Assembly: GCA_903836465.1 (NCBI GenBank)
Contig: CAILRB010000035.1
Location: 62,001 to 126,000 of the forward strand
Length of the DNA stretch: 64,000 bases
Direction of reading: 5' to 3'
DNA from: an uncultured Chlorobiaceae bacterium
GTDB lineage: Bacteria > Bacteroidota > Chlorobiia > Chlorobiales > Chlorobiaceae
Positions within the stretch are counted from its first letter, which is position 1. Each line of letters begins with the position of its first letter. The notes below the pieces were generated by a model, which did not search any database, had not been told where the DNA came from, and saw only the letters and a list, made by a program, of their open reading frames with translations. This document shows positions 1 through 8,591 of the stretch, in pieces. The translations under genes and the position numbers were made by a program.

Positions 1-644
1 GCTCACTGCTCGACGATCTGATTGAGCCACCACCCCCAAATGCCGGAGAGGCAATTCCCTTTCTTGGTGAGACAAAAATCCACGAGTTTGTGCTTGAAAT
101 TGCCGCCGCTGGGGATATTGTGCTTAATGTTGATGGCAGATGGATAGTCCGGCGCTCCGAAGATGGTACCGATAAGGAGGCATTGAACTACTTTAAATCC
201 AACGCATTTCGCACTGGTCAGGAGATGCGTCAGATTCAGCTTGGACTGCCAGGAGCTGTTGGTGGTGGAACCGTCACAGCCACACATGTCCCTGCTGCTG
301 TTGCTGTTGTTCAGCCAGAGAGTAAGGATAGTAAGCCGTACTCATCTTCCGGATCCGGGGAAGGTATCATCAGTGGAATCGGTGGTCAGAATGCTGATGG
401 TGAAATTACCCGGCCAAGCCCCCTTCCCGTCGCCAGCAACCGTAAATCTGCTGAGCCAGCAACCGGTATCAACCTTTCAGGCTGTTTTGAGTCATGGGGA
501 GTCTCTTCGGATCAACCGATTGAAACCGCACGTATTGAATTTTCTGGTCTTACCTCTCAGCAGATCAAGCAGATTCTGCAACGCATACCCTCTTCATTCA
601 AAGCGACACTTGATATCACCTGGCGTGAAGGAGGCGTGCAATGA
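1..644 (+). CDS. DUF499-like ATPase, C-terminal part (partial gene)
   Basis: The reading frame is open from base 3 to the stop at 642-644 and has no start in the window, so this is the C-terminal ~213 residues of a longer protein. The visible part has a short alpha/beta stretch (WIVRRSEDGTDKEALNYF), a low-complexity Ser/Pro-rich linker, and a final domain with the LTSQQIKQILQRIP motif near the end. This tail matches my memory of DUF499 proteins, which are large AAA-type ATPases found in PglZ/DUF1156 defence loci. The ATPase core lies outside the window, so the assignment rests on the tail and on the neighbours. The stop overlaps the start of the PglZ-like gene (ATGA), which implies translational coupling. 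Assignment moderate; membership of the operon is strong. Confidence 0.6.
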   Translation, partial: SLLDDLIEPPPPNAGEAIPFLGETKIHEFVLEIAAAGDIVLNVDGRWIVRRSEDGTDKEALNYFKSNAFRTGQEMRQIQLGLPGAVGGGTVTATHVPAAVAVVQPESKDSKPYSSSGSGEGIISGIGGQNADGEITRPSPLPVASNRKSAEPATGINLSGCFESWGVSSDQPIETARIEFSGLTSQQIKQILQRIPSSFKATLDITWREGGVQ

Positions 645-1600
645 CCGAGGCTGTAAACTGGAAGACTCTCATTTTCGGTGTGCACGAACCCGCAATGGCC
701 TGGGTGAAGATATTCTCCGCCCTGCTCTCTCTTGCCCGGCAGAGTTCATCGCCGGTTACGCTTCATGATGCAACAGTTACTCCTGACCGACTGTTGAGCG
801 AAGCCGCTTGGGAACTTTGGGAAGCCTTTCCCCTGACAGCAGTAAAAACTTCAGCCAGCCTCAAAGAGTGGACACGTCAAAGTCCGGGAAAGGCTGTTCT
901 CATCCTTGACGCTCTTTCATTACGGGAGTTGTCTCTTCTGCTTGGCGCGGCAGAAGCAAGGGGTATTCAGCCGCTGGAGGTCAAAGTTACTGGTTCAGAG
1001 TGTCCCTCAACCACCGACCACTTTGCCAAAGCCATCGGGTTGTCATCAAGAAGCGCCTTGGCCAACGACGGGAAACCTGGCACCCTGTCACTTTTCGACG
1101 GCAATTGTTTTACGGATGTGCTCAGTATGCCATTCGAGGATTGCGCCATTCCTCCTGCACCAAACATAGTGGTCTGGCACTCCTGGCTTGATGACCTGAT
1201 TCACCTTCAACTGAAAAATCCTGACCAGATCGCCAGCATCTCTTCAACCGTTTTGCAGAGCGACGGCTTTTGGAGTTTTATCAACAAGCTTCGGCAGGGA
1301 AGGGCTCTGGTTATCACTTCAGACCATGGGTATGCTGTCAGTAAACGCTTCTCTTCTGAAATTGAAGAACCGGCCGCAATAGAGACATTAAGAAAAACCT
1401 TTGGAGCCTCCCGCAACAAGGCAGTCGCTGACATAGGGCCAAAAAAATTTATGCCCCCAATTGTCATGACGCACAACAATCAGCAGATCATTATGGGGCA
1501 ACGCAAATGGAAGGTTCAGGGTGGATTCCCCAACGTATGTCATGGAGGAATGACGCTTCTGGAAGTTGCTGTACCCTGGATAGAGTTTTCCGCACTATAA
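641..1600 (+). CDS. PglZ-like alkaline-phosphatase-fold protein
   Basis: This 319-aa protein has the hallmarks of the PglZ family: a hydrophobic strand ending in a metal-binding aspartate (VLILDALSLREL, around residue 90), a second strand ending in SDHG (ALVITSDHGY, around 225), and a C-terminal HGGMTLLEVAVPW motif. PglZ proteins are shared core components of BREX/Pgl-type phage defence and have an alkaline-phosphatase superfamily fold; their substrate is not settled. It is shorter than typical BREX PglZ and lacks long N-terminal extensions. The start overlaps the upstream stop by four bases, and the next gene begins 11 bases after its stop. The family call is firm. The role as a defence component is inferred from family and context. 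Confidence 0.8.
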   Translation: MTEAVNWKTLIFGVHEPAMAWVKIFSALLSLARQSSSPVTLHDATVTPDRLLSEAAWELWEAFPLTAVKTSASLKEWTRQSPGKAVLILDALSLRELSLLLGAAEARGIQPLEVKVTGSECPSTTDHFAKAIGLSSRSALANDGKPGTLSLFDGNCFTDVLSMPFEDCAIPPAPNIVVWHSWLDDLIHLQLKNPDQIASISSTVLQSDGFWSFINKLRQGRALVITSDHGYAVSKRFSSEIEEPAAIETLRKTFGASRNKAVADIGPKKFMPPIVMTHNNQQIIMGQRKWKVQGGFPNVCHGGMTLLEVAVPWIEFSAL

Positions 1601-1610
1601 TATTCCGACT

Positions 1611-2132
1611 ATGCTGACTATTCAACATACTGAAGAGGATCTGAGCCGGGCCTACGTTCAGGCAATTGCCGCAAAAGCAGGGGTGAACCTGAGTATGAAA
1701 GATCGCTCACACGATTATACCATTGATGGCACATTTCATCAGGTATCATACTTTAATGGCCATTACCACGAAACCGGCTTCAGCCTTGATTTTCAGCTCA
1801 AAGCATCCAAAAACTGCATCATTGGGGATACGCATCTTCGTTATGACCTCGATATTGAAACCCATAACTATCTGGTTGATCGTGCACAAAAATCAGGGAC
1901 GACACCGGTAATACTTATTGTGATGGCATTACCTGAAGCTGAAAGTGAGTGGTTATCACTCTCGGAAGAGGAACTGGTGTTACGTCGCTGCTGTTACTGG
2001 GTTTACCTTTCCGGCGAGAGAAGCAAGAATGCAAGAACGCAACGAATTGAAATAAGCAGACAAAACTTCCTGACTCCAAACCTCCTCAATAAGGTATTAA
2101 CCGCTGTAGAGAAAGGAGAAACTCCATCATGA
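1611..2132 (+). CDS. DUF4365 nuclease-like protein
   Basis: A 173-aa protein with the DUF4365 pattern: N-terminal SRAYVQAIAAKAG helix, then an acidic DYTIDG turn, then GFSLDFQLKAS, where D-x-Q-x-K resembles the D/E-x-K of PD-(D/E)XK nucleases. The C-terminal part has the family's EEELVLRRCCYWVYL segment. DUF4365 proteins are predicted restriction-endonuclease-fold enzymes often found in defence islands; I know of no settled activity for this one. It sits 11 bases after the PglZ-like gene and overlaps the next gene by four bases (ATGA), so it is co-translated with the 385-aa protein, its likely partner. Family call good; catalysis inferred. Confidence 0.75.
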   Translation: MLTIQHTEEDLSRAYVQAIAAKAGVNLSMKDRSHDYTIDGTFHQVSYFNGHYHETGFSLDFQLKASKNCIIGDTHLRYDLDIETHNYLVDRAQKSGTTPVILIVMALPEAESEWLSLSEEELVLRRCCYWVYLSGERSKNARTQRIEISRQNFLTPNLLNKVLTAVEKGETPS

Positions 2133-3286
2133 ACAACAACAATGATACCGCCGGGCAGCAACTCCGTGTAGAGGATATAACGGCCTATATCCGTAAAACA
2201 GGGTGGACAAAGCTCGACCATCCAAATCCATCATTACTTGTCTACCAGTACGAGCGTAACGACGATTTCAACCATGAAATCAAGCTTGTTCTGCCAAATG
2301 GAAACGACTATAGCGATGCCGTTGCCAAAATCCAGTCAGCGGCCAAACTTATTGCAGCGCTTGAGCAAACTGCCGTTTCCGATATTGTCCAGAAAATCAA
2401 AAACCGCTCGCTTGATATTTTCCGTCAGAGAATATACAGCAGCACCCGCCTGACAAGTTTACCGCTCGAACTTGCACCTCTGGTTATTTCACGCTTGCGC
2501 GATCTGGTCTATTATGCTGCATGTGCGGAGGAAGATAATCAGCCCTACTTTGCAAAGGGCAGGAAAATAGGGAAGGAGTATACCCATAAATGCAGGTTTG
2601 GCCACACGTTTCAGGGCAGCTTTGGCCTGACCATCGAAATGCCTTTACCACCCTCCACCCTCACCCTGCTTCCTGATATTGAAGCATCGCCGCTTGAGCG
2701 ACGGGTTATGGAGCGTATTGTACGGGGGTTGCAATTTGCGGTTAAAGGCGTTCGTGAAAGCGATATCGATATTATGACCAGCAACTATGAACAGGGGTTC
2801 AATGCAAACTTGTGTGAAGTCATGAAAGAGCTTACCGAAGATCTTGATGATTTTAATCTTGAGTATTCAATGCTGTGGTCCCCCGAATTTAACGCCAGTG
2901 CTGACGTCAGTTCATTTTCAAACATCATTATTGAACCATCTGTTTTTCGGCCATATTTTGAAGCCGCAGCAAAATCACTTCGAGCAGTTACCGAATCGCA
3001 GGAAACTGCAATAATCGGAAAAATCATACAGTTAAAAGCTGAATCACTAGACAGTGACGATGAGGCGGGCGATTCCGACGGACGGCAGGTCATTATTGCG
3101 TGGGATATTGGCAATAATCGCAAGGTCAATATCAAGGTCTCACTGAGCCCGGAGAATTACCGCGCAGCCTGTGATGCTCATAAAGACAACAAAACCGTAT
3201 CAGTCATGGGGCGGCCCGAAAAAGTCGGTAAATCGTGGGTATTAACCTCTCCGGCAAGTTTTGCCATCAATGAAACCGGCACATAG
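2129..3286 (+). CDS. Uncharacterised 385-aa protein, probable DUF4365 partner
   Basis: I do not recognise this protein. The N-terminal ~100 residues are alpha/beta, with a KLVLPNGNDYSDAVAKIQSA segment followed by a helical stretch. The middle carries KCRFGHTFQGSFGLTIE (around residue 155-171), a conserved-looking C-x3-H turn and beta hairpin that could bind metal or form an oligomer interface. An acidic linker (residues ~305-320, DSDDEAGDSDG) precedes a small basic beta domain ending MGRPEKVGKSWVL, which looks like an OB or SH3-like fold. No signal peptide or membrane segment is present. The gene overlaps the DUF4365 gene by four bases and is followed two bases later by the methyltransferase gene. 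Confidence 0.55.
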   Translation: MNNNNDTAGQQLRVEDITAYIRKTGWTKLDHPNPSLLVYQYERNDDFNHEIKLVLPNGNDYSDAVAKIQSAAKLIAALEQTAVSDIVQKIKNRSLDIFRQRIYSSTRLTSLPLELAPLVISRLRDLVYYAACAEEDNQPYFAKGRKIGKEYTHKCRFGHTFQGSFGLTIEMPLPPSTLTLLPDIEASPLERRVMERIVRGLQFAVKGVRESDIDIMTSNYEQGFNANLCEVMKELTEDLDDFNLEYSMLWSPEFNASADVSSFSNIIIEPSVFRPYFEAAAKSLRAVTESQETAIIGKIIQLKAESLDSDDEAGDSDGRQVIIAWDIGNNRKVNIKVSLSPENYRAACDAHKDNKTVSVMGRPEKVGKSWVLTSPASFAINETGT

Positions 3287-3288
3287 GA

Positions 3289-6200
3289 ATGGATTTATTC
3301 GGTTACGTTCATGAATCATCAACCGACTACCCGAAAAAGAGCGGGCGCAAAACGAAGGCTGACAAACAGGCTGACTTGCTCCCTGAAAAGCTTGGCAAGG
3401 CGATAAAGCTTCCTGTCCCGGACTTTTCTGATCCTGACCGCAAGCTCACCTGCCTTGAAGCTGATTTTCCCATAGCGCAGATCAACGCGCTCTCCATTCT
3501 TGAAGGCAACGCCGGAAAGCCGATCTACCAGATGTCGAAATGGTGGGCCCGCCGTCGGTCGAGTGTTTTCCGCTCCATGCTGATTGCGGCGGCAACCGAA
3601 GCGCCGGATGACCCAAACGAAGCCGCCAAGCGGGTTTGGGATCACTACTACTGCAACCATCAAAAAGCAGGATCATTCAAAAAGCTCCGTGTGCTCGACT
3701 GTTTCATGGGCGGCGGCACCACGCTTGTTGAGGGATCCCGTCTCGGTATGCAGATGACCGGCGTTGACCTCAACCCGGTGGCCTGGTTTGTGGTAAAAAA
3801 TGAGCTGGCGTGCAGCGACCCGGAGCAGGTCAAGGCGCTCTTCGCCTCCATTGAAGCGCAGGTTAAACCGCAGATACAGCCCTTTTATACCACCACCTGC
3901 CCGAGAGGCCACAAGGGACGATGGATAGCTATCGAAAGCGGTGCACCGGTTGAGATTGACCCGATAGAATTACCACCAGAACAGCGCTTCCGTTACCGAT
4001 GGGAAGGGCCGGAGGTGATCTACACCTTCTGGGCAAAGCACGGCCCCTGCCAGGCTAAAGGGTGCGGCCACCGTACCCCGATTTTCCGCACACCGGTTAT
4101 TGCCGAGAAAAAGCTTTCCACCGGGTATGCCGAGCTGACCTGCCCCGGATGCGGCACAACCTTTCATGCTGAACTTGGTGAAACCCGCATGGCTCCCGGA
4201 GCAGAGCGCATTATTGTGGGCGGGGATATACCCTTCACCGAGATGACGCAGCAGTTTGCCCGCCTCCTGAACGATTACGACAAAGGCAACGCCGCCGACA
4301 CCTTTGAGCGGGCTCTCACCCTGAAAGCAAGTGGGGGCGAGGAGCCAGGGCTGCACTGCCCGAAATGTGGTACCTTTGCCGGAAAGCGCCTTGTTGACCA
4401 GTTTACGCGCCATGCCCAGCCCGCACTTGGTGCAACAGCGCGAAAGAAAAAAGAGTTTGGTCTCAGGAACAAGCCGGTTCAGATGTACTTGCTCATCCAT
4501 CCCGAATGGCTGAAAGGCGCATCAGGTTTTGACGGGGAGCGGGAGTATGGTGGATGGGCCGGAGCACCGGCAGAGGCAACCGCCGACTGGTTCACGAAAC
4601 GGCTGGAGCATTTGCGCGTTGTTGAGGTTCGAGGGGCTTCACTGCCGGATGAGGTGGTTTTGGCTGACGGGACGGTGATTGAGACTGCGCACGGTAGTGG
4701 TCTCAAAGATGCAAAATTTATATGTGGTCACTGTGGCCGTCAAGCAAAAACGTTGCAGGGTATTAAAGCAAGCGAGCATAATGCACCTGTGGCGGCTTAT
4801 ACGTTGCAATGCCATTGTCCCCAATGTGATGCAGAGGGCTATACCTACGGAGGGAGATATTTTAAAGCACCTGACGAACACGACATTCTGCGGCTCAATG
4901 CTGCTTATATGGAATGGGCAAGCCGTTCGGAAGTGGATTTGGCAGAATATTGGCCTCGGCAGGAAATGATTCATGCCCACATGACACATGAAAGAAATCC
5001 TCTCCCAGACCATGGATATACCCATTGGTGGAAATTGTTCAGCAGCAGGCAATTATTGGTACATGCAACTCTGTTAAAAGCAATTACGGAAGTGTCAGAA
5101 GAGTGCTGGCCGCTTGATGTTCGGGAACAAGCCCTGGGGGCTTTTCAGCAATATTTGCGGAACCAGAATATGTTCTGTATTTGGAATATTGCCGCAGATA
5201 AAATGGAACCATTTTTCTCGGGAGGAAATTATAATCCTAAAAATCTGACAATAGAAAATTCAGTATTTCCATCGTTAGGTAGAGGAAATTGGCAATCTTC
5301 ATCCTCAAAATGTGTCACTGCGCTTGAATGGACAAAGGAACCGTGGGAACGGTATGCGGCTGATGAATCAGTAGCAACAAAGTCTGTAACCGTAAAGACA
5401 GATGATCCGATAGTGCCTGGGGTAGCCGTAAACTGTGGTTCATCAACGGATCTTGTATTTCTCAAGGATGAAAAATTCGATTTGGTTATTACAGATCCAC
5501 CTTTTGGTAATAACTTTTATTACGCTGATCTTTCTGATTTTTTCTATGTTTGGCTGCAACTACCGTTACGTAAATGGTATGCAGGTCTGCCTGAGGCAAC
5601 ATATTTTGACGCTGAGCGGACACCGCACAGCATGGAGGCTATCGATAATGCAGCAGAACATAAGGATGATCGAGAGAATTACGAGAAAGATGAGTTTATC
5701 AAAGTCAAATATTTGAATCAAATCCGGGAGTTAACCGGAGAATTTTCCCTTGCAGAGAAAGATAGTAATCCACTTTTTCGGCAAACACCCTCAAGTGATT
5801 TTTACAGTCAGACATTGTCCGCTTGTTGGGCCGAAGCTGGTCGTCGTCTCAAAGAAGGCGGTATTATGGCTTTTACTTTTCATCATGATGACGATCAAGC
5901 CTGGATTGATGTTTTGTGCGCTTTGTTTAATGCGGGCTATATTTTGTTACAAACATTTCCTGTTATTGGTGATGAATCAAAAGGGGAAAAGGCCTCTTTT
6001 GGCAGCAAAAAAATAGAATACGACATCATCCACGTCTGCCGGAAACGTCTCGGAGAGCCGGAGCCGGTGAGCTGGGCCCGGATGCGGCGCTGGGTGAAAG
6101 AGGAGAGCTTTCGGTTGAAGGAGCTGTTGGAGCACACCCATGGCAAAGAGCTGCCGGAATCTGATTTGCGGGTGATTCTTCGAGGCAAGTCGCTGGAGTT

Positions 6201-6828
6201 CTACTCCCGCCACTACGGCAAGGTGTTTACCGGCGACAATCAGGTGCTTGATGTTCGCGAAGCCCTGCTTGGCATCAATCAGCTTCTCGACGATTTGCTG
6301 GAAAACACATCTTTGACCGGAGGAGTGCACCCTCCTGACAGTGCTGAACCAGCCAGTCGGTTGTACCTGCGTTTGTTCAAGAAGCGTACAGAGATGGAGC
6401 GTGACGAGCTGCACAAAACCCTGCGTGGCACCGGCATTGCCCAGGGAGACCTTGAGGCGCGGGGGTGGATCAGGGTGGTTGGTAAAACCGTTGTGATGGT
6501 GCCAATCCGTGAGCGCATTGCCTTTTTTACCGAGCGTGGTCGTAACCGCAAGGTGATTAAAACAGACCTCGATCAGGCCCATTTTCTTGTTGGCGCGGCT
6601 TTTGTGGATTCAGGGCTGAAGATCGAGAGCGAGCTGAACAACCCGAACTTCAAGGTGAAACGCTCCGTCGATGAGCTGTTGCACTGGTATGCCGAGGTTG
6701 ATGGTGATCCCGTCAACCGGGTGGCCGCCACCACCGCCTCACAACTGCTGGAGCGCTGGCGTAACCGCAAAGTCAAGCCTGAGCCAGCCCAACTGTCGCT
6801 TTTTGAAGTACTTGAATCAGATGAATAA
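3289..6828 (+). CDS. DUF1156-domain DNA methyltransferase
   Basis: A very large (1179-aa) SAM-dependent DNA methyltransferase. The N-terminal DUF1156 block is seen at residues ~50-100 (PIAQINALSILEG, then SKWWARRRSSVFRSML). Motif I is VLDCFMGGGTT (residues ~134-144), with VDLNPVAW following. The catalytic DPPF motif (LVITDPPFGNNFYYADL) is near residue 731, almost 600 residues later. Between them lie several Cys-rich ribbons (CPRGHKG, CQAKGCGH, CPGCGTTF, CPKCGTF, CGHCGRQ, CHCPQCD). The DPPF signature points to an N6-adenine or N4-cytosine amino methylase. It is presumably the self/non-self marker of the operon. Bases ~4700-6010 are much more AT-rich than both ends. No frameshift was seen. Confidence 0.85.
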   Translation: MDLFGYVHESSTDYPKKSGRKTKADKQADLLPEKLGKAIKLPVPDFSDPDRKLTCLEADFPIAQINALSILEGNAGKPIYQMSKWWARRRSSVFRSMLIAAATEAPDDPNEAAKRVWDHYYCNHQKAGSFKKLRVLDCFMGGGTTLVEGSRLGMQMTGVDLNPVAWFVVKNELACSDPEQVKALFASIEAQVKPQIQPFYTTTCPRGHKGRWIAIESGAPVEIDPIELPPEQRFRYRWEGPEVIYTFWAKHGPCQAKGCGHRTPIFRTPVIAEKKLSTGYAELTCPGCGTTFHAELGETRMAPGAERIIVGGDIPFTEMTQQFARLLNDYDKGNAADTFERALTLKASGGEEPGLHCPKCGTFAGKRLVDQFTRHAQPALGATARKKKEFGLRNKPVQMYLLIHPEWLKGASGFDGEREYGGWAGAPAEATADWFTKRLEHLRVVEVRGASLPDEVVLADGTVIETAHGSGLKDAKFICGHCGRQAKTLQGIKASEHNAPVAAYTLQCHCPQCDAEGYTYGGRYFKAPDEHDILRLNAAYMEWASRSEVDLAEYWPRQEMIHAHMTHERNPLPDHGYTHWWKLFSSRQLLVHATLLKAITEVSEECWPLDVREQALGAFQQYLRNQNMFCIWNIAADKMEPFFSGGNYNPKNLTIENSVFPSLGRGNWQSSSSKCVTALEWTKEPWERYAADESVATKSVTVKTDDPIVPGVAVNCGSSTDLVFLKDEKFDLVITDPPFGNNFYYADLSDFFYVWLQLPLRKWYAGLPEATYFDAERTPHSMEAIDNAAEHKDDRENYEKDEFIKVKYLNQIRELTGEFSLAEKDSNPLFRQTPSSDFYSQTLSACWAEAGRRLKEGGIMAFTFHHDDDQAWIDVLCALFNAGYILLQTFPVIGDESKGEKASFGSKKIEYDIIHVCRKRLGEPEPVSWARMRRWVKEESFRLKELLEHTHGKELPESDLRVILRGKSLEFYSRHYGKVFTGDNQVLDVREALLGINQLLDDLLENTSLTGGVHPPDSAEPASRLYLRLFKKRTEMERDELHKTLRGTGIAQGDLEARGWIRVVGKTVVMVPIRERIAFFTERGRNRKVIKTDLDQAHFLVGAAFVDSGLKIESELNNPNFKVKRSVDELLHWYAEVDGDPVNRVAATTASQLLERWRNRKVKPEPAQLSLFEVLESDE

Positions 6829-6849: not shown

Positions 6850-8037
6850 ATGAAAATAGAGTCCATACGGTTAAAAAATTTCAAGGCATTCCGCGATGCG
6901 GAGTTGATTGATCTGCCGAATTTCTGCGTCTTTGTAGGGGCGAATGGCACAGGCAAGAGCACCATCTTCTCCGTGTTCGGTTTTCTGAAAGATGCCATCA
7001 CCAGCAATGTCAACACGGCGCTTGCAAAGCTTGGCGGAAGCCGGGGTTTTTCAGAGGTGCGCAGCCGTAACGCCACCGGGCCGATTGAGATTGAATTGAA
7101 GTTCCGCGAAGGGAGCGACATGCCTCTGACCACCTACTTTCTGCAAATCAATGAGGAGAACGGTCGGGTTATTATTGAGCGTGAAATTCTCAAGTACCGC
7201 AGAGGCAGTGGTGGACAGCCGTGGCATTTTCTTGATTTTTCGCGGGGGAAAGGAAGTGCTGTCACCAATGAACTGATGTCGGTTAACGATGTCAAAGAGT
7301 TGACTCGCGAAGAGCAGACGCTGAAATCTCCGGATATTCTGGCTATTAAAGGGTTAGCGCAATTCAAGCGCTTTCCTGCTGTGGTGGCGCTTGGCAATCT
7401 TATCGAGAACTGGCATGTCTCTGATTTTCATATCAGTCGGGCCCGTCCGGAGCAGGAGGCTGGTTATGCGGAGCATCTGTCGCGTGAGGGTGAAAACTTG
7501 TCGCTGGTCATCCAGTATCTTCATAACCACTATCCTGATGCCTTCAGTCAAATACTTGAGTTGCTGAAGCAGCGCATTCCCGGGATCTCTCAGGTAGAAT
7601 CAAAAACCACCGAAGAGGGGCGGGTGCTGCTCAAGTTTCAGGATGGCTCGTTTGAAGATCCATTTTTGGCTCGCTATGTTTCGGACGGTACCATCAAGAT
7701 GCTGGCCTATCTGACGCTGCTCTATGATCCTTCCCCTCACCCGTTGCTGTGTGTAGAAGAGCCTGAAAATCAGCTCTATCCAAGGCTTTTGCATGAGCTG
7801 GCTGAGGAGTTTCGCAACTATGCAAATCGGGGTGGGCAGGTGTTTGTTTCGACCCATTCACCTGATTTTTTAAATGCAACAACTGTTGATGAGGTGTTCT
7901 GGCTCGTCAAAGAAGAGGGATATACCCAAATCCGTCGAGCCAATGAGAATGCGCAGGTTGTTGCCTATATGAAAGATGGCGATCAGATGGGCTATTTATG
8001 GGATCAGGGCTTTTTTGAGGGGAGCGATCCACAATGA
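6850..8037 (+). CDS. AAA ATPase, SMC/OLD-like (AAA_15/AAA_21 type)
   Basis: A 395-aa ABC/SMC-fold ATPase. It begins with the typical IESIRLKNFKAF strand and has Walker A GANGTGKST at about residues 31-39, Walker B LLCVEEPENQLYP near residue 300, and the switch histidine in VSTHSPDF. It lacks a long coiled coil and has no fused TOPRIM domain. The TOPRIM-like function is probably supplied by the next gene, which overlaps by four bases (8034-8037). Separate ATPase plus TOPRIM pairs are known in bacterial immunity (OLD, Gabija and PARIS are comparators). It starts 21 bases after the methyltransferase stop, so it belongs to the same operon. The ATPase call is firm; partnering is inferred from the overlap. 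Confidence 0.85.
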   Translation: MKIESIRLKNFKAFRDAELIDLPNFCVFVGANGTGKSTIFSVFGFLKDAITSNVNTALAKLGGSRGFSEVRSRNATGPIEIELKFREGSDMPLTTYFLQINEENGRVIIEREILKYRRGSGGQPWHFLDFSRGKGSAVTNELMSVNDVKELTREEQTLKSPDILAIKGLAQFKRFPAVVALGNLIENWHVSDFHISRARPEQEAGYAEHLSREGENLSLVIQYLHNHYPDAFSQILELLKQRIPGISQVESKTTEEGRVLLKFQDGSFEDPFLARYVSDGTIKMLAYLTLLYDPSPHPLLCVEEPENQLYPRLLHELAEEFRNYANRGGQVFVSTHSPDFLNATTVDEVFWLVKEEGYTQIRRANENAQVVAYMKDGDQMGYLWDQGFFEGSDPQ

Positions 8038-8591
8038 AGAGTCTTGTTTTCTTTCTCGAAGAGCTCTCTGCTCGACGAATGCTTGAAGGGGTGTTGCCGA
8101 GATTGATTCCTTCTGATATCAATGTTCAGTATGTGGTTTTTCAGGGAAAAAGTGATCTGGAAAAGCAACTTGAGAGAAAACTTCGCTTTTGGCTGCTCCC
8201 CGATTCAATCTTTGTTGTCTTGCGTGATCAGGATGCCGCTGATTGCCATGTTATTAAAAGGAGACTTGCGGAGCTGTGCCAGCAAGCGGGGAAAAGCGAA
8301 GCGTTGGTTCGCGTCGCTTGCCACGAATTGGAAAGTTTTTATCTCGGCGATCTGGCTGCGGTTGAACGTGGGCTGGGTATCAGGGGATTGGCTGCAAAAC
8401 AGGGACAGAGTCGGTATAGAACTCCGGATAAACTTGGCTCTCCCTCTCAGGAATTGAAGAAACTGACAAACGGCAAATATCAGAAGGTTGCAGGATCCCG
8501 TGCTATCAGCGGGTATCTCAATCTTGAAAAAAACAGCTCAAGGAGTTTTACTGTGCTTCTCTCGGGGATCAAAAAAGTGCTTGAACATTGA
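8034..8591 (+). CDS. DUF4276 TOPRIM-like protein
   Basis: A 185-aa protein matching DUF4276. It starts with the hydrophobic strand LVFFLEELSARRMLEGVLPRL carrying an early Glu, then FVVLRDQDAADC (D-x-D-like acidic pair near residues 62-66), then ACHELESFYLGD near residue 103. These acidic positions fit a TOPRIM-like metal site as found in OLD-family nucleases. DUF4276 genes usually follow an SMC-like ATPase gene, as here (ATGA overlap). Expected role is a nuclease or toxin effector controlled by the ATPase; this is inferred, because the activity of this exact family is not established to my knowledge. The next gene starts four bases after the stop. Confidence 0.75.
   Translation: MKSLVFFLEELSARRMLEGVLPRLIPSDINVQYVVFQGKSDLEKQLERKLRFWLLPDSIFVVLRDQDAADCHVIKRRLAELCQQAGKSEALVRVACHELESFYLGDLAAVERGLGIRGLAAKQGQSRYRTPDKLGSPSQELKKLTNGKYQKVAGSRAISGYLNLEKNSSRSFTVLLSGIKKVLEH

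Follow-up and report, generated by a model that had tools for sequence, protein, structure and literature searches.

A central block of a DUF1156-family DNA methyltransferase gene in an uncultured Chlorobiaceae bacterium is probably an exchangeable specificity cassette

The window, a stretch of 64,000 nucleotides (nt) from an uncultured Chlorobiaceae bacterium (assembly GCA_903836465.1, contig CAILRB010000035.1, positions 62,001 to 126,000), contains a defence operon with a gene for a DUF1156-family DNA methyltransferase. We consider it very probable that this gene encodes a modification and specificity subunit with an exchangeable cassette (about residues 468-910) on a conserved chassis (residues 1-467 and 911-1179), and that cassettes have been replaced whole by recombination from divergent orthologues. 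A sequence-only reading of the same DNA had proposed, from base composition, that recombination swapped the central segment, possibly with a change in target specificity, and kept the reading frame. The swap is supported here by a nucleotide-sharp break in sequence identity and by incongruent trees, and the open reading frame (ORF) is intact across it.

The break was located by comparing the window gene with the alleles at loci L008 (genome G058) and L018 (genome G068), both genomes being assigned to the genus of the window genome. Any two of these three Chlorobiaceae alleles share 63-65% nt identity within the block and about 95% outside it. Two-breakpoint fits placed the edges at 4686-6015, 4689-6007, and 4686-6015 in the three allele pairs, with intervals of two log-likelihood units (2-lnL) spanning a few bases and lnL gains of 153-284, compared to about 13 or less in permuted data, and the edges thus agree within about 10 nt. 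Against L008, the N-terminal chassis is 94-97% identical in amino acids (aa) and 91-97% in nucleotides, with a synonymous divergence (dS) of 0.05-0.24, while residues 911-1000 of the C-terminal chassis are 100% identical in aa to both L008 and L018 and the remainder is 98-100% identical. The three alleles are all different within the block, which requires at least two replacements whose edges nearly coincide. Flanking repeats were not apparent at these edges by eye, although no dedicated repeat search was made.

Synonymous sites show the same break. Among the three alleles, flank dS ranges from 0.05 to 0.39, compared to values from 1.3 up to saturation in the block; the nonsynonymous divergence (dN) does not exceed 0.024 in the flanks and is 0.17-0.48 in the block (for L018, values up to residue 351 are artefactual, owing to a fusion at that locus described below). 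The combination of saturated dS, lower dN, and conserved catalytic residues points to functional alleles kept by purifying selection rather than to decaying sequence. In trees of the flanks, the Chlorobiaceae alleles are united (100/100) or identical, whereas in the tree of the middle L008 joins L014 from the Desulfobacteraceae (99/97) and L018 tends to L009 from the Desulfuromonadaceae (81/97). Enforcing monophyly of the three alleles there costs 52.4 lnL, with a p value in the approximately unbiased test (p-AU) of 0.022. In the most variable part of the block, L008 is nearest to L021 and L025, and L018 again to L009. Separate phylogenies of the three parts, as proposed in the sequence-only reading, accordingly gave different nearest relatives of the middle for L008 and L018.

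The core genes recG and gltA were used to calibrate these divergences. Their dS is 1.1-2.0 between the window genome and G058 or G068, and 0.21-0.33 between G058 and G068. For the latter pair, dS is 0.07 in the DUF499 gene of the operon, 0.13-0.37 in the methyltransferase flanks, and 1.75 to saturation in the block; relative to the core genes, the flanks are consistent with vertical inheritance, and the middle alone is foreign. Between the window genome and these two, dS is 0.13 in the AAA ATPase cargo gene downstream and 0.05-0.39 in the flanks, and it is 0.80-0.97 in the DUF499, helicase, and PglZ genes (the latter against L008). Given the core-gene divergence, the flanks and the AAA cargo gene are too similar for descent, implying that chassis and cassette both moved horizontally, at different times; on these divergence values the window gene would carry two horizontal histories. 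The near-identical tract shared by the window genome and L018 runs from inside the PglZ gene (716-1116) to a point close to the end of the AAA cargo gene (8021 onward). From these limits, the outer recombination edges vary and the inner ones are constant.

These data also bear on a reversed history, in which the middles are old resident alleles and it is the near-identical flanks that were replaced, through conversion or transfer from a single source. The flanks and AAA cargo of the window lineage are indeed far closer to those of G058 and G068 than are its core genes or its DUF499 and helicase genes (dS 0.80-0.85), which speaks for such a history. However, flank divergence between G058 and G068 fits vertical descent and leaves only the middle anomalous, the middles form no Chlorobiaceae clade, and two tracts with the same inner edges would be required. 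We regard this history as unlikely, though the least improbable of the alternatives, and its outcome would still be a cassette on a shared chassis.

Base composition had first drawn attention to the segment. The four hand-counted windows are exact (39 of 60 G+C at both 3541-3600 and 6061-6120, 18 of 60 at 5461-5520, and 22 of 60 at 5521-5580), and G+C content is 57.1% at 3289-4699, 42.8% at 4700-6010, and 55.6% at 6011-6828. For the G+C content of third codon positions (GC3), the best two-breakpoint fit delimits residues 469-910 (window 4693-6018; lnL gain 48.3), which agrees with the AT-rich part previously described at about 4700-6010 and its abrupt end near 6020. GC3 is 0.348 inside and 0.642 outside the fitted block, and fourfold-degenerate sites of the N-terminal, middle, and C-terminal parts have G+C fractions of 0.63, 0.37, and 0.66. 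The largest changepoint gain in the 43 other ORFs of the window is 9.2. Since ORFs beyond 12 kb average a GC3 of about 0.50, GC3 exceeds the local norm in the methyltransferase flanks and is below it in the block. Amino acid composition was ruled out as the cause by shuffling synonymous codons with the protein kept fixed (n = 300), which yielded a gain of at most 13.1. As the sequence-only reading stated, the GC-rich part contains motif I (about residues 134-145) and the AT-rich part contains DPPF (residues 736-739).

The block in composition is beyond chance but would not by itself prove a swap, because the dip is partly family-wide. GC3 of the middle is below that of the flanks in 29 of 31 orthologues (mean difference -0.12, in a statistic that ignores relatedness), and the mean difference is -0.15 for the core at residues 561-710; the window gene has the most extreme drop (-0.30). 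AT-rich recognition cassettes in a GC-richer chassis seem to be characteristic of the family, perhaps as a result of continued cassette movement. Composition pointed to the right place, and the proof is carried by identity, dS, and trees. The same family-wide dip, and the lower conservation of the segment than of its flanks throughout the family, would suit an intrinsically AT-rich, fast-evolving segment that diverged in place under diversifying selection and without recombination. This we consider very improbable, as synonymous sites of the same genes are saturated inside the block and little changed outside it, the nucleotide-sharp edges are common to three pairs, and the trees are incongruent.

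A similar arrangement is found, as an independent case, in a second clade. L046 and L048, two IMG/VR contigs with methyltransferases about 43% identical to the window gene, show the same pattern of flanks and block, with nt identities to each other of 96% in DUF499, 98% in PglZ, 84-96% in the methyltransferase ends, and 48-76% in the block, most of which is saturated in dS. Their right edge lies at residue 906 (904-910), as in the Chlorobiaceae, and their left edge at residue 411 (395-416). A smaller divergent block (residues 454-709) covers the same core in L009 and L021. Between the Escherichia coli alleles Ec1 and Ec2 (L056 and L057), the only compact block of difference is at residues 634-673, over that core, and E. 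coli thus provides no full-block swap.

Recurrence of the right edge in an unrelated clade also argues against an assembly chimera, in which genes of two strains were joined at conserved words. L008 and L018 are indeed metagenome-assembled genomes and the right edge lies within a very conserved stretch, but three separate assemblies share these edges, with the frame intact each time, and the exact word common to the alleles is about 14-17 nt at the right edge and shorter at the left, below the k-mers typical of assembly, which are longer. A chimera is therefore very unlikely. The shared exact edges also resemble those of a shufflon-like switch, with local inversion or recombination drawing on silent cassettes, but the window genome (G000) has one strong locus (its other matches are remote, E 5e-8 or weaker), the cassette has a single match at E 1e-60 or better, and silent copies were absent from the 107-contig draft assembly, an absence that is not final in a draft, making this the least credible explanation.

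Several observations weigh against whole-cassette replacement as we propose it. The left edge has no obvious long homology in the compared alleles, and its position varies by clade (about residue 467 in the Chlorobiaceae vs. 395-416 in L046 and L048). L008 and L018 come from metagenome assemblies and the window genome is a draft in 107 contigs. Composition is weak evidence by itself, given the lower GC3 of the segment in 29 of 31 orthologues. The p-AU value for non-monophyly is only 0.022, and the place of the window allele in the middle tree is unsettled. No donor of the window cassette was found among viral contigs, plasmids, and sampled genomes of several groups, where the best match had 64% aa identity. 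Finally, the literature searched gives a methylation motif for no allele or family member.

What the block would carry was examined in a structure prediction for residues 36-929, built from 31 sequences (mean pLDDT 88, pTM 0.86; an earlier model from a shallow alignment, with pLDDT 54.6, was set aside). Strands 1 and 2 of the predicted fold, at residues 134-137 and 155-160, precede an insert of roughly 550 residues. We read the subsequent order as strand 3 at 713-716, strand 4 at 730-735 leading into DPPF, strand 5 at 854-864, strand 6 at 884-893, and strand 7 at 911-919. With these positions, the block comprises the distal half of the insert and strands 3-6 and ends just before strand 7. Identity in the core of the block falls to 28% in L046/L048. 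In DUF1156 methyltransferases, the nested insert after strand 2 is described as the target-recognition domain (PMC12839542); from this, and by analogy with the mod genes of Type III restriction-modification systems, we strongly infer that the block decides which sequence is methylated, and specificity probably resides in the core at about residues 561-710. Foldseek comparisons with PDB and viral libraries returned a generic methyltransferase fold only, with TM-scores too low to name a relative of the recognition domain.

The exchanged unit would thus consist of the distal half of the predicted recognition insert, with its CxxC...CxxC motif and hypervariable core, together with strands 3-6 including DPPF. 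Whole cassettes may be replaced from divergent orthologues via homologous or short-homology recombination, with the right crossover at EYDIIHVCRKR, a highly conserved sequence that adjoins the right block edge and is encoded by nearly the same codons in different phyla. Near-identical flanks could then act as arms in later swaps. Such an exchange would probably change the DNA sequence recognised by the defence system, and selection may favour swaps when phages become adapted to the previous motif or evade it. It is doubtful that EYDIIHVCRKR, located at the right edge in two clades only about 43% identical, evolved or was selected as a recombination anchor and that the family trades a recognition-plus-catalysis half-domain across phyla as modular specificity for defence related to bacteriophage exclusion (BREX).

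Type III mod genes are well known to have their recognition domains replaced (PMC3311624, PMC3983042), and PMC3311624 describes the central domain as replaced sometimes between species. As in modA of Neisseria and Haemophilus and mod of Helicobacter pylori, where conserved ends enclose a variable recognition domain replaced en bloc or mosaically, the window gene combines conserved flanks with a non-orthologous central block, sharp edges, and incongruent ancestry of the block. It differs in belonging to another methyltransferase family and defence system and in that its exchanged unit also carries the catalytic strands 3-6 with DPPF. The modA genes are phase-variable. Recombination in conserved flanking sequence also exchanges recognition domains, and moves them, in hsdS of Type I systems, but the window gene has no separate S subunit and no second recognition-domain position. 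In PglX/BrxX of Type 1 BREX, the methyltransferase is likewise the specificity factor of a PglZ-containing defence system (PMC11341690), although its recognition domain is C-terminal to the catalytic domain, unlike the domain nested between strands 2 and 3 here. We did not find replacement of recognition domains described for DUF1156 methyltransferases or BREX-related systems in the literature searched, which left most subscription papers outside, and the words "recombination" and "swap" are absent from the main text of PMC12839542. These natural alleles, with one chassis and unrelated cassettes, mark a probable specificity site (about residues 561-710) and junctions that tolerate exchange, suggest for BREX-related defences a capacity to diversify similar to that of Type III restriction-modification genes, and offer a direct route to testing target choice in BREX-related systems.

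The methyltransferase has homologues at 43-82% identity and matches the HmaB and PglXI models; its DUF1156 profile match (E 9e-5) is just under the cut-off. The core order of the operon is DUF499-type ATPase, PglZ-like protein, DUF1156 methyltransferase, 165-aa protein, and Snf2 helicase (Table 1). The ATPase shares 38% identity with a protein annotated as DUF499 in L043, where the gene order is the same, and the L018 orthologue matches PF04465 weakly (E 7e-4, below the gathering cut-off). Profile searches found no family match for the 165-aa protein and only helicase domains, with no nuclease domain, in the helicase. Judging from gene content, we assign the operon to the Type-3 BREX-related (BR) systems, also called Hma (PMC12839542; HmaA/HmaB in PADLOC), with which it shares the DUF499 ATPase, the DUF1156 methyltransferase with an insert after strand 2, the Snf2 helicase lacking a nuclease, the standalone PglZ, and an extra small protein. 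An iSTAND component is present in 82% of taxa with Type-3 BR (PMC12839542).

Table 1. Features of the methyltransferase gene and its operon (window coordinates)
Feature	Position	Strand	Evidence or remark
Exchanged block	4686..6015	+	Identity break in three allele pairs
Left edge of exchanged block	4681..4689	.	2-lnL interval over three allele pairs
Right edge of exchanged block	6007..6020	.	At start of GAATACGACATCAT stretch; same edge in L046/L048
N-terminal chassis: DUF1156 region, S-adenosylmethionine (SAM)-binding Rossmann half (strands 1-2), proximal insert half with C/H-rich motifs	3289..4685	+	
C-terminal chassis: last strand and C-terminal region (helix-turn-helix triad per PMC12839542)	6019..6828	+	
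EYDIIHVCRKR, last strand of the fold, highly conserved; likely right-hand crossover anchor	6016..6048	+	Strand at 911-919
DUF1156-family N6-adenine DNA methyltransferase, HmaB/PglXI-like	3289..6828	+	1179 aa, ORF intact; family models and homologues
Motif I (SAM-binding loop, VLDCFMGGGTT) and strands 1-2, residues 134-165	3688..3783	+	N6_N4_Mtase match 134-163
CxxC...CxxC zinc-finger-like motif, C479, C482, C510, C513	4723..4827	+	Conserved alignment columns; inside block
Most variable block core, residues ~561-710, probable target-recognition core	4969..5418	+	Lowest allele-pair identities
Strands 3-6 of methyltransferase fold, carried with block	5419..6018	+	Predicted structure
Catalytic motif IV, DPPF	5494..5505	+	D736, P737, P738, F739 invariant in family alignment
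DUF499-type AAA+ ATPase gene, 3' end	1..644	+	Starts upstream at L005:13822
Standalone PglZ-like protein	641..1600	+	Weak PglZ matches (E 1.7e-5, 5.7e-5) over C-terminal part; same position in relatives
Cargo gene DUF4365/PDC-M02A	1611..2132	+	Family models
Cargo gene PDC-M02B	2129..3286	+	Family model
Cargo gene HEC-01 AAA ATPase (best model HEC-01B)	6850..8037	+	
Cargo gene, DUF4276 partner (best model HEC-01A)	8034..8591	+	
Small conserved core protein, 165 aa	8595..9092	+	In most relatives with full operon; iSTAND candidate by position only
Snf2-family helicase, HmaA/BrxHII-like, 945 aa	9025..11862	+	Best models HmaA, BrxHI/BrxHII

The same core gene order surrounds the gene in most of the relatives that were examined, among them Klebsiella, Aminobacter, and Ca. 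Tenderia plasmids and E. coli chromosomes, and the closest relatives of the window genome with the methyltransferase gene are Chlorobiaceae. Unlike the Type-3 BR/Hma operons of PMC12839542, the window operon also carries PDC-M02 and HEC-01 cargo, in two slots. The slot before the methyltransferase (1611-3286) holds DUF4365 with PDC-M02B, an AAA protein with a 185-aa protein, SIR2 with an ATPase, a 501-aa protein, or nothing (in the window, L010, L011, L043, and L022), and the slot after it (6850-8591) holds the HEC-01 pair or nothing. L008 is without the DUF4365 gene, and its PDC-M02B gene has a 543-bp in-frame deletion relative to the window (L008:7540-8178). The L018 fusion (L018:9530-12517, 995 aa) joins, in frame, the N-terminal part of PglZ to the methyltransferase from residue ~351; it corresponds to a 3.2-kb deletion of window ~1116-4339 with loss of DUF4365, PDC-M02B, and motif I, and represents either a deletion or an assembly artefact. 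The methyltransferase copy at L024:4089-5367 is truncated: its first 338 residues share 96% identity with L025, after which the frame continues into unrelated sequence and a stop.

A second DUF499-centred operon is probably present in the window genome at L007:4310-16385, where a Snf2 helicase, a PtuA-like AAA protein, a DUF1156-family methyltransferase, and, by resemblance, a DUF499-like protein are encoded, and another remote methyltransferase match is located on contig C83 (L006). Directly upstream of the DUF499 gene, L005:9289-13518 encodes a DUF4062-NACHT-FGE-sulfatase protein and a Fic protein, neighbours that suggest a wider defence island.

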